Assembly: GCF_029144185.1 (NCBI RefSeq)
Contig: NZ_CP110232.1
Location: 1,240,001 to 1,304,000 of the forward strand
Reading direction: 5' to 3'
From: Vagococcus intermedius
GTDB lineage: Bacteria > Bacillota > Bacilli > Lactobacillales > Vagococcaceae
Length of the DNA: 64,000 nucleotides
The translations under genes and the position numbers were made by a program. The notes beneath the pieces are model-generated. The model was given only the letters and a program-made list of their open reading frames with translations, ran no database searches and had not been told where the DNA came from. Below are positions 38,369 to 55,268 of this stretch, one piece after another; position 1 is the first letter of the stretch; each line of letters begins with the position of its first letter.

Positions 38369-38426
38369 AGCAATTCCTCCTGAATAAGTAAGTTATGTAT
38401 TTCTCTTGCATCCCTAGAATACAAAA

Positions 38427-38471
38427 AAAAACTATGACATTTTAGCCATAGCTTTTTTGTCATAGTTTTTT
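38427..38471 (-). terminator. Hairpin with T-run in the pduA leader (possible attenuator)
   Basis: ACTATGACA (38431-38439) and TGTCATAGT (38458-38466) form a 9-bp stem, extended by A/T runs; a nine-T run follows on the minus strand, about 60 bases before pduA. A shifted pairing through the internal CTATGGC is also possible. It could be an intrinsic attenuator of the pdu operon, or act for transcripts from the pocR side. Confidence 0.55.
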
Positions 38472-38486
38472 TTATCCCTGTTTTCA

Positions 38487-38523
38487 GACTATTTTGTTAT
38501 CGTTTTCTTTAACTGTTTGTTTT
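38487..38523. promoter_or_regulatory. Candidate PocR site and cre box before pduA
   Basis: GACTATTTTGTTATCG (38487-38502) matches sequences before the 39864 gene and pduU; a weaker copy AACTGTTTGTT follows 24 bases on (38511). A CcpA cre-like box TGTTATCGTTTTCT (38495-38508) overlaps the first copy, which would couple activation by PocR to catabolite repression. Inferred from sequence repetition. Confidence 0.5.
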
Positions 38524-38646: not shown

Positions 38647-39654
38647 ATGGAAGATCATTTAGAATTTATTGAGCCTAACCAAAAGATTTTAGACAAATTA
38701 TTAAGCGAATTTACTGAAGCAACTGGATTGGCAACGATTTTAGTCGATACCCAAGGGATTGAGCTGACACCTGGCTATGGTTTCTCACCCTTTTGCCAAC
38801 TAATGAGAAATAATGAGGATACACGAAAATTATGTCAACATTGCGATATGTTCGGTGGTCGCAGTTCTATAAAAAATAAACAAACAACCCCTTACGTTTG
38901 CCATGCAGGATTAGTAGATTTTTCTTACCCTGTCACAATTGACAACCAATTAATTGGGTTTATTCTTTGCGGACAAACGCGTATTGAAGTAGCGCATCCT
39001 TTCCAAGAGATTATCAACGAAAAAACAGATTGGAAAAACGATCCTTTATTTGTCGAAGTCTATGAATCTATGCCTCTCACCACTCCTGAAAAAATCAAAG
39101 CCGGCAGTGAATTACTAACGATTATTATCAATTACTATCTGGCTGATATTATGAACACCTCACTTAAGGCTAATGTTGAATCTGCCACAAATTTACCAAA
39201 TTTCACTCAAACAGAACCTTCTATCAAAAAAGTTAAGCCGACTCAACCGAAAACGTCTTTAGAAATTGTTCGGAATATCGAACGCTTTGAACAGCGTTTA
39301 CCACAAATTGAACGACCGGAGATTAGCACAGCTATTAAGTATATCAACGACCATCTTAACGAGGTCATTACTCTCGATGAAGTTGCTGATTACGTCCACC
39401 TTTCTGGCTATTATTTTAGTAAATTATTTAAAAAAGAAGTTGGCATCACATTTATTGACTATATTAATGAGAAAAAAATTAGCCGTGCGATGATTCTATT
39501 GCAAGATTCAACTTGGTCTATTGACAGTATTGCCCATAGTCTTGGTTACTCTCAATCAAGTTATTTTAGTAAGTTATTTAAAAAAACCACTAAAATGTCG
39601 CCACGTGACTATCGCCAAATCATTCAAAAAGAAAAAGAAGCGTTCCGAGTATAA
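38647..39654 (+). CDS. pocR: PocR-type AraC-family activator of the pdu locus
   Basis: A 335-residue regulator. The N-terminal PocR sensory domain (about 5-165) has CQLMRNNEDTRKLCQHCDMFGG and YVCHAGLVDFSYPV with the usual Cys residues. The C-terminal 90 residues are two AraC helix-turn-helix motifs (LDEVADYVHLSGYYFSKLFKKEV and IDSIAHSLGYSQSSYFSKLFKK). It is divergent from pduA and in Salmonella and Listeria such proteins activate pdu in response to propanediol. ATG at 38647 follows AAGGA; a TTG start at 38605 is not supported. Its 3' end converges on a cobalamin riboswitch. Confidence 0.93.
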   Translation: MEDHLEFIEPNQKILDKLLSEFTEATGLATILVDTQGIELTPGYGFSPFCQLMRNNEDTRKLCQHCDMFGGRSSIKNKQTTPYVCHAGLVDFSYPVTIDNQLIGFILCGQTRIEVAHPFQEIINEKTDWKNDPLFVEVYESMPLTTPEKIKAGSELLTIIINYYLADIMNTSLKANVESATNLPNFTQTEPSIKKVKPTQPKTSLEIVRNIERFEQRLPQIERPEISTAIKYINDHLNEVITLDEVADYVHLSGYYFSKLFKKEVGITFIDYINEKKISRAMILLQDSTWSIDSIAHSLGYSQSSYFSKLFKKTTKMSPRDYRQIIQKEKEAFRV

Positions 39655-39672
39655 TCGGAACGCTTCTTTTTT
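39638..39672. terminator. Bidirectional terminator at the pocR 3' end
   Basis: Perfect 12-bp stem GAAGCGTTCCGA / TCGGAACGCTTC overlapping the pocR stop codon, T runs on both strands. It would stop pocR mRNA and could also stop antisense RNA coming from the riboswitch side. Confidence 0.9.
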
Positions 39673-39690
39673 AGTCTTTTAAATAGACAC

Positions 39691-39735
39691 TAAAAAAACG
39701 CCCGACTTTTTTACTCCCGAAAAAGTCCTGGCTGA
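39691..39735 (-). terminator. Terminator hairpin of the cobalamin riboswitch
   Basis: GACTTTTT / AAAAAGTC stem with GCC/GGC base pairs below it, followed on the minus strand by TTTTTTT (39692-39698). The 5' strand includes GCC that is also next to the aptamer end, so B12 binding could decide between the two folds. Confidence 0.7.
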
Positions 39736-39852
39736 AGTATCCTGACTTTGCTTCATCCGCCACAAATCCTTCCAACTTACGCCGTGGTTATTTGCTTTGT
39801 CCACAATACAGTTGCGGGTACAGTATCAGATTTTCACTGATTTCCTTCAAAC
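39736..39852 (-). promoter_or_regulatory. Cobalamin (B12) riboswitch, antisense orientation to pocR
   Basis: The minus strand reads GAAATCAGTGAAAATCTG, then TACCCGCAACTGT, a GGAAGG.. element and AGTCAGGATACTTC, matching the conserved core of adenosylcobalamin aptamers in order. The 5' part of the aptamer extends into the end of the 39864 gene. It points toward the pocR 3' end, with a terminator between. In Listeria monocytogenes a riboswitch in this position controls the pocR antisense RNA aspocR. No separate promoter was identified; it may be transcribed from the pduU/39864 unit. Confidence 0.85.
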
Positions 39853-39863
39853 ATATTATTCAA

Positions 39864-40946
39864 TTAATAAGATTCTCTAAAATAAAGTAACCTTAAATTT
39901 TCTGCTAATTGTTGACTAAATAGCTGAGGGTCTTCTTCAAGTAAATCAGCTAGTAAAAGATGTACTTCATTGGGTAAACGATCAGCTAGACTACTAATCC
40001 GACTAATGACAATCACTGGTAACTCGTAAGTGGCAAGTAGCTGCCTTAAATGTGTGTTACGATCTAAAATAATAAAATAATTAATAGCGCCTAGGTGCTC
40101 ACTGATATCTAAATAGTCTATCAAAGCCTCCAACTCATCTTCCACTCTCACTTGTTTGAAAAAGTTAAAGCAAGCAAAAGCCAAGCCATTTCCAGCACTC
40201 AGATGTTCGGGTTCTGGTGACACCTTTTTAAGAAGCTTATCTATTTCATTGACACAACTTGCTGTTTGTTTATCAAGTAGTTTAGCTATAGCAAAACTTG
40301 CGCCTGTCAATTCTTGATTTCTAATAGCCAAACCATGTTCACCGAAAAGTGGCCCAAAAGTTTTTGTGTCACTCCATATTTCATAATCACACTGTAACCA
40401 TTTAGAGTCTAATTTTTCATAAGAAAAACTTGCTATTTGTCCTATTTTACCACCTGTTATGTTGATTTGTCTACCATTATCTGCATAAAATATCACACCC
40501 AGAGACTCTAACATGCCTAAACCTAAGTCAGTTGCAATATTTTCGACATTTAAAAAGACAATATGTTCCGTGTTATTTTTAACTACCTTTTTTAGTAGCT
40601 CACCTAATCCGTGACTCGTACTCATAAGTGGTGCTCGTGCTAACGGTGGCACAGTCTTAGCACCTAAAACTGAGCCAACATCAATAAAAACTGTTTTTTT
40701 ATCAGTATCGTAGCCGTACAAGGCATCAACTGAAAATTTTAATGGGCCTTCTACCCTGGTAGAACGAAGTGACTGATTATGATAGTCCATCAACACTTGT
40801 AAATGACGTTCAAAATCTACCTCTGGTAACTGAAGGACTTCAGTATCTTTTGAAACGGCTTTCAAATCTAGTCGCATTTGTTCGATTAATTGATTATTGT
40901 CTCCTTGGTCTTCAACTAACGGGCTAACAGAATATACTTCTCGCAT
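39864..40946 (-). CDS. Divergent glycerate-kinase-like protein, probably not an active kinase
   Basis: A 360-residue soluble protein. By eye it aligns with type I glycerate kinase over most of its length: RVEGPLKFSVDALYGY, the stretch ARAPLMSTSHGLGELL (family form about RNPLxTTSYGTGELI), TDLGLGMLESLGVIF (family NDGGAGMLQALGVRF) and GNGLAFACFNFFKQV (family GAAGGLGFALLAF). The signature motifs are altered: the N-terminal ADGGEGT is PEVDFERH, the GIGGSATNDGG loop is LNVENIATDLG, and the TGEGRxDGQT segment is ILDRNTHLRQL. So catalysis seems lost and a sensing or regulatory role is possible. It is the second gene of the pduU unit; SD GGGGG precedes ATG. A role in the Pdu system is inferred from context. 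Confidence 0.7.
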   Translation of the reverse strand: MREVYSVSPLVEDQGDNNQLIEQMRLDLKAVSKDTEVLQLPEVDFERHLQVLMDYHNQSLRSTRVEGPLKFSVDALYGYDTDKKTVFIDVGSVLGAKTVPPLARAPLMSTSHGLGELLKKVVKNNTEHIVFLNVENIATDLGLGMLESLGVIFYADNGRQINITGGKIGQIASFSYEKLDSKWLQCDYEIWSDTKTFGPLFGEHGLAIRNQELTGASFAIAKLLDKQTASCVNEIDKLLKKVSPEPEHLSAGNGLAFACFNFFKQVRVEDELEALIDYLDISEHLGAINYFIILDRNTHLRQLLATYELPVIVISRISSLADRLPNEVHLLLADLLEEDPQLFSQQLAENLRLLYFRESY

Positions 40947-41026: not shown

Positions 41027-41063
41027 CATAACTATTTTGTTATATCTTTCACATAACTATTTT
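41027..41063. repeat. Direct repeat, candidate PocR binding sites
   Basis: CATAACTATTTT occurs at 41027-41038 and 41052-41063, starts 25 bases apart, between pduU and the 39864 gene. The first copy continues GTTAT and so resembles the pduA-promoter motif. AraC-family dimers often bind such tandem sites. Confidence 0.5.
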
Positions 41064-41465: not shown

Positions 41466-41511
41466 AGGCTACGCTTTCAGATAACCTATGTCAATCGATA
41501 ACAAAATTGTC
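41466..41511 (-). promoter_or_regulatory. pduU promoter with candidate PocR site
   Basis: Minus-strand GACAATTTTGTTATCG (41496-41511) directly abuts a -35 box TTGACA (41489-41494); the -10 at 17-base spacing is poor (TAGCCT, 41466-41471). A good -35, weak -10 and adjacent site suit activator control. Confidence 0.5.
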
Positions 41512-55070: not shown

Positions 55071-55097
55071 GAAGGCACATTCAAATAGTTTAATTAT

Positions 55098-55180
55098 TTG
55101 CAGGGGGACGTTAGTCGTTGAGAAGGTAAAACCTGACCCTTAGAACCTGTTGGTTGATACCAGCGTAGGGAGCAGATGTC
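55098..55180 (+). promoter_or_regulatory. TPP riboswitch (THI element)
   Basis: GGGGGACG..TTGAGAAGG..ACCTGACCCTTAGAACCTG..GATACCAGCGTAGGGAGC keeps the order of conserved THI-box blocks, with TTGAGA in place of CTGAGA. A terminator follows, so thiamine pyrophosphate should stop transcription. Confidence 0.92.
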
Positions 55181-55210
55181 ACTTTGTCATACACTAAATC
55201 CCTGACATTT

Positions 55211-55244: not shown

Positions 55245-55268
55245 TTATTGATAAAGGAGGAAATAGTG

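Follow-up and report, generated by a model that had tools for sequence, protein, structure and literature searches.

A cobalamin riboswitch antisense to pocR in Vagococcus intermedius appears to use the bidirectional terminator of pocR as its regulated terminator

In a 64,000-nucleotide stretch of Vagococcus intermedius DNA (hereafter, the window), a cobalamin riboswitch is found that has no gene downstream of it in the sense orientation. What does such a riboswitch control, and where does its transcript end? The riboswitch is convergent with pocR, i.e., it is transcribed antisense to this regulatory gene, and pocR is itself divergent from an operon with genes for two BMC shell proteins, a diol dehydratase and a reactivase. 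The pduA gene lies beyond pocR on the same strand as the riboswitch, and a gene for a small PduU/EutS-type BMC protein is located upstream of the riboswitch, also on the riboswitch strand. The central elements are as follows.

38647-39654, plus strand: pocR, encoding a PocR sensory domain (PF10114, 8.7e-39) and an AraC-type HTH (1.1e-22).
39864-40946, minus strand: glycerate-kinase-family gene (PF02595, 1e-32), directly upstream of the riboswitch.
About 39852-39731, minus strand: cobalamin riboswitch aptamer from P1 to P1', delimited by the RF00174 match and by compensatory changes in nine relatives.

A covariance-model scan of the window gave an RF00174 match at 39910-39713 on the minus strand, with 57.6 bits against a gathering threshold of 31.5 (E 1.1e-11). 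The motifs quoted in a preliminary description of this DNA are present, and its claim of a minus-strand cobalamin riboswitch by pocR is thereby borne out. The aptamer starts ~12 nt past the stop codon of the 39864 gene, and includes an L5 with CCCG as well as the B12 box CAGGATA (39744-39738). Its helices are kept across the nine relatives, where 15 of the 31 predicted pairs change on both sides; the aptamer is predicted to bind cobalamin. In the whole genome (2.3 Mb), three RF00174 matches exceed the cut-off and a fourth falls below it (30.6 bits; L004:1501-1631, equal to G000:C1:1562074-1562204, minus strand). The latter is flanked by iron-alcohol-dehydrogenase-like and adenosyltransferase-like genes, as identified from sequence only; the cluster looks like eut, and the position would correspond to that of EutX in the eut operon. 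The window also contains a TPP riboswitch (RF00059, 63.9 bits) at 55092-55188 on the plus strand, upstream of an ORF at 55248.

An antisense riboswitch was found beside every close pocR relative examined, namely nine distinct sequences from Vagococcus, Enterococcus and Loigolactobacillus that represent about six lineages after identical records were merged. Specifically, an RF00174 match lies on the opposite strand beyond pocR for 7/7 other close PocR proteins (68-72% identity), and the further carriers are Vagococcus fluvialis, V. humatus, three Enterococcus and Loigolactobacillus jiayinensis. The layout is thus conserved in related genomes, and to call it Listeria-like in another genus was correct. 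It had already been predicted by a 2023 survey, which reported the antisense layout for Vagococcus carniphilus as well as for further Listeria (PMC9943018); the V. carniphilus element is of the same kind and occupies the corresponding position in a related bacterium. In the passages of the survey that treat it, the V. carniphilus prediction is one of position only, with no expression platform or shared terminator described. RF00174 matches were absent from loci with other PocR-domain regulators (0/14), and wider sampling (families of 105 and 76 genomes, a class sample of 399 genomes, and plasmids) added no new members. The known arrangement was seen in fifteen Listeria genomes, in which the antisense path includes the Rfam family rliH. 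In V. humatus, CRISPR repeats (RF01335; L046:10915-11676) occur ~1.7 kb beyond the riboswitch, and FMN riboswitches (115-120 bits) were seen at most ~1 kb from other PocR-domain regulators in relatives (L065, L066 and L068).

We next consider what follows the aptamer, where the preliminary description had placed an adjacent terminator.

39700-39732, minus strand: P13 hairpin with L13 (P13b GCC/GGC, internal loop AG/G, P13a GACUUUUU/AAAAAGUC, L13 CGGGAGUA).

This hairpin (39732-39700) is weak as a terminator, scoring -37 on a scale that combines hairpin and T-run on both strands, the values of which are relative since the d'Aubenton-Carafa-type implementation is our own. P13 as the riboswitch terminator was rejected on this basis, with scores of -37 or lower in those of the nine clade members where the hairpin was found at all. 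The loop of the hairpin reads UCGGG(A/G), that is, UCGGGA in the window, and CCGGGA in Loigolactobacillus. Its CGGG is complementary to the CCCG of L5 in 9/9 sequences, both motifs being invariant, so that this is complementarity only and not covariation. Given this complementarity, the hairpin directly behind the aptamer is better read as P13 with L13 than as a terminator. The P13b pairs vary on both sides between species (GCC/GGC, CAU/AUG, CAC/GUG and CGC/GCG); in L035, L038 and L048, the P13b helix is indistinct.

The nearest strong terminator on the antisense path is that of pocR.

39631-39672, core stem 39637-39666, both strands: T2, a bidirectional terminator located by consensus scan and terminator score.

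T2 scored +28.8 in the antisense and +26.4 in the sense direction. The strong bidirectional terminator reported earlier is therefore real, but it straddles the pocR stop codon (39652-39654), which sits in the loop, and does not lie wholly inside pocR as had been stated. Its antisense 3' arm (39648-39637) coincides with the pocR codons E-A-F-R. In all nine clade members, T2 is strong in the antisense direction (-1 to +30, often higher than in the sense direction) and is the sole strong antisense terminator ahead of the pocR coding region; hairpin and T-run scoring revealed no separate intergenic terminator (T1) behind the aptamer in any of them. In Listeria, on the other hand, a hairpin of its own in the intergenic region, T1, serves as the B12 terminator (scores of -11 to +10 in six genomes). 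The pocR terminator there works well for sense transcription alone; on the antisense strand it is weak in 6/6, with scores that do not exceed -32 or with none found. Here, a single palindrome over the pocR stop codon takes both places, and we propose that it ends the pocR mRNA on the plus strand and serves as a B12-gated terminator on the minus strand.

A candidate antiterminator strand lies at the 3' edge of P13, followed by a connector that leads to T2.

39695-39705, minus strand: antiterminator strand UCGGGCGUUUU, consisting of the P13 3' edge and its flank, which pairs with 39666-39655.
39672-39694, minus strand: connector, with a small hairpin that caps the antiterminator in free MFE folds of partial transcripts.

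At and behind the P13 3' edge, the sequence is similar to one arm of the pocR terminator (the 3' arm) and can base-pair with the other (the 5' arm). The duplex of UCGGGCGUUUU with the T2 5' arm sequence GAAGCGUUCCGA in the window comprises 11 pairs and a single bulge, and the best duplex has -11.2 kcal/mol; the pairing extends over 11/11 positions in L039 and, via an A-tract, also in L038. When the 45 nt behind L13 were searched, the best duplex with the T2 5' arm was located at the P13 3' edge in 9/9 sequences. Using one sequence per lineage (six lineages), the pairing of each flank with its own terminator ranked first of 720 assignments, ahead of the 719 others, and the summed duplex energy was -72.5 vs. 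-39.2 +/- 4.7 in dinucleotide shuffles (0/2000 as low), where it should be noted that the hypothesis arose from the same sequences and that the lineages are few (about six, nine sequences). The single-species shuffle test was weak in L037 (0.17) and L038 (0.06). On these comparisons, the antiterminator covaries with the terminator arm across species. The connector varies among species in both its length and its sequence. The regulated-looking terminator and antiterminator between the aptamer and the pocR coding region thus involve the pocR terminator itself, and the comparative evidence indicates that the terminator regulated by the riboswitch is probably T2 itself, which the antiterminator would open without B12.

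Folding predictions were made for complete and partial transcripts. Transcripts cut after the T2 5' arm contained the antiterminator in the unconstrained MFE fold in 9/9 cases; full-length folds contained T2 in 9/9 and P13 in most. T2 is very stable, and the antiterminator would have to win during synthesis, which is beyond what energies can settle. In addition, the antiterminator overlaps P13a by 1-3 bases only, so that mutual exclusion of P13 and antiterminator would depend on P13b and the kissing loop.

If RNA polymerase passes T2, how far would it travel? Terminator scoring found no strong antisense terminator inside pocR; the next one lies beyond it.

38423-38458, minus strand: T3, an antisense terminator in the pocR-pduA gap (score +16.4).

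A strong antisense terminator is present between pocR and pduA in 9/9 clade members, and T3 is absent at L042, a pocR relative without the riboswitch that served as a single control. The corresponding gap in Listeria has an antisense hairpin of other sequence, with scores of -22 to +14 in six genomes. We propose that T3 is the 3' end of a long antisense RNA, and its conservation suggests that transcripts do cross pocR. The predicted antisense RNA would be ~1430 nt from aptamer to T3, and ~220 nt when stopped at T2. These lengths are close to those of Rli39/AspocR in Listeria monocytogenes, where the system is proven and the RNA is 230 nt with B12 and 1400 nt without (PMC8079631, reviewing Mellin 2013).

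Taken together, we consider it probable that the minus-strand riboswitch sets the extent of pocR antisense transcription, with pocR's own bidirectional terminator as the regulated terminator. With B12 bound, L5 and L13 would kiss and hold P13, and the P13 3' edge would be unavailable as antiterminator; the palindrome 39637-39666 would fold, and the antisense RNA would stop at the pocR 3' end. Without B12, pairing of the P13 3' edge (39705-39695) to 39666-39655, the T2 5' arm, would let RNA polymerase cross all of pocR to T3 before pduA. The long antisense RNA would then lower PocR, keeping B12-dependent propanediol use off when the cofactor is lacking. Since it is the antiterminator strand, rather than the terminator, with which P13 overlaps, a repressing type is expected, in which B12 stops the antisense RNA. 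What the analysis shows is the aptamer, P13 with L13, the shared terminator, the covarying antiterminator and T3; the binding, the switching itself, the transcript ends and the effect on PocR are what we infer.

A precedent for the switching step is the Priestia megaterium metE corrinoid riboswitch, where the scheme was proven by mutation and compensation (PMC10653944). As in our model, it has an L5-L13 kissing loop, the P13 3' side pairs with the terminator 5' side as antiterminator, and a structured region between P13 and terminator caps the antiterminator as the connector does in the folds predicted here (PMC10653944). It differs in being an ordinary sense-acting 5' leader, whose terminator belongs to the riboswitch alone; in an activating variant from the same work, the role of antiterminator falls to P13 itself (PMC10653944). 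Listeria AspocR shares with the present locus a cobalamin riboswitch convergent with pocR and an antisense terminator before pduA, as well as the order of aptamer, P13, antiterminator strand, connector hairpin and terminator (around T1, in most folds shown); the gene upstream of the riboswitch differs. An antisense-acting riboswitch that likewise sits where a gene or operon ends is the SAM riboswitch of Clostridium acetobutylicum ubiG, which has another ligand and another aptamer (PMC9943018, PMC7154746). The antisense position is thus already known, and switching through a shared terminator appears to be new: the locus appears to be an AspocR-type riboswitch with pocR's own bidirectional terminator as its regulated terminator.

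An alternative is that T2 merely insulates pocR. No antisense transcript would then pass it, and the riboswitch would yield short RNAs only, which would act in trans or by pairing at the pocR mRNA 3' end. That T2 is a strong antisense terminator throughout the clade would fit with this, and the preliminary description likewise saw the terminator as an obstacle that could lead to a short sRNA. EutX/Rli55 of Enterococcus and Listeria are known riboswitch-sRNAs, and resemble the present case in being B12 riboswitches without a gene behind them that are tied to a B12-dependent catabolic operon. These sRNAs sequester EutV by ANTAR hairpins. Rli55 and EutV/EutW have been described (PMC7677406). However, insulation would leave unexplained why the P13 flank matches and covaries with the terminator arm, and T3 would be purposeless if nothing crossed pocR. 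A trans-acting RNA would need a shared motif, but the connector is variable, and inspection by eye of the region behind the riboswitch in the nine sequences showed no conserved motif besides P13, the antiterminator and the terminators. Given the covarying antiterminator and the conserved T3, we regard insulation with short RNAs as unlikely and do not favour the reading of T2 as a block. A bidirectional terminator at pocR, in other words, need not mean insulation.

We then examined from where the antisense RNA could be transcribed. As previously proposed, no convincing promoter directly precedes the aptamer in the window, where matches are at chance level (17 vs. 12.1 +/- 3.4 expected). In the window and in three Enterococcus, no more than ~20 nt separate the aptamer from the glycerate-kinase-like gene's stop codon. 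This proximity, together with the chance-level promoter matches, makes it likely that the riboswitch is co-transcribed with that gene in these genomes. The suggestion that the 39864 transcript feeds the riboswitch is plausible in this genome; four relatives (L035-L038) instead have a dedicated promoter, TTGNNN-17 nt-TATAAT, directly before the aptamer. The 39864 protein is below the NCBIfam cut-off (113.7 of 168.45 bits). In the three Enterococcus, the glycerate-kinase-like gene follows an ECF-type transporter cluster, which may take up B12.

The same proximity, and the presence of a homologue of the 39864 gene near the riboswitch in 6/6 large loci examined, could also mean that the riboswitch acts from the 3' UTR of the glycerate-kinase-like mRNA, where it would govern the stability of this transcript or its 3' end. 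The separate promoters that intervene between gene and aptamer in the four relatives speak against this, as does Loigolactobacillus, where the pduU-like gene intervenes. Across the loci, the constant partner is pocR, and we judge a 3' UTR role to be distinctly improbable. A functionless, decayed remnant, left after loss of a downstream B12-regulated gene, would explain the missing sense-orientation gene and the aptamer score, which is 57.6 bits here vs. 107-124 in Listeria, but it is very improbable given the compensatory changes over several genera and the retention of L13, P13b and the antiterminator. Least credible of all is an excludon in which read-through enters pduA, on the same strand beyond pocR, and couples pocR antisense repression with pdu sense transcription, because a strong terminator precedes pduA on that strand in every clade member and the pdu genes would be expressed without B12.

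Returning to the preferred reading, in which the riboswitch gates antisense transcription through T2, we think it reasonably likely that one palindrome, made partly of the last pocR codons, is both the constitutive pocR mRNA end and the B12 gate on the antisense RNA, with the antiterminator coevolving with the 3' end of its target. An antisense riboswitch could accordingly do without a dedicated terminator, and the AspocR logic of Listeria would extend to Vagococcus, Enterococcus and Loigolactobacillus. A platform complementary to the 3' terminator of the facing gene is a feature to seek among the 292 antisense-acting riboswitches whose prediction the survey reports (PMC9943018).

Finally, we inspected the regions upstream of pduA, the 39864 gene and the pduU-like gene. 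The conserved T3 palindrome, GCTATGRC-N6-GTCATAGC followed by a T-run, is separated by a nearly constant ~9 nt from the TATACT box that precedes pduA, and because of this spacing T3 may also be part of the pduA promoter or a pduA operator. As a genome-wide operator, the palindrome was rejected, since its perfect form occurs once in the genome, here. The same regions contain candidate PocR boxes.

41031-41043, minus strand: candidate PocR box ATAACAAAATAGT, upstream of the 39864 gene.
38488-38500, minus strand: candidate PocR box ATAACAAAATAGT, in the pocR-pduA gap upstream of pduA.
41498-41510, plus strand: candidate PocR box ATAACAAAATTGT, upstream of the pduU-like gene.

Exact ATAACAAAATWGT sites, a motif spotted by eye in these regions, number three in the whole genome, a match number at control level, and all lie within the pocR/pduA/pduU region, a location that is striking. 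If ATAACAAAATWGT is indeed the box bound by PocR, the regulator would activate the transcription from which its antisense RNA arises, which would agree with the rise of AspocR on propanediol in Listeria (PMC8079631).
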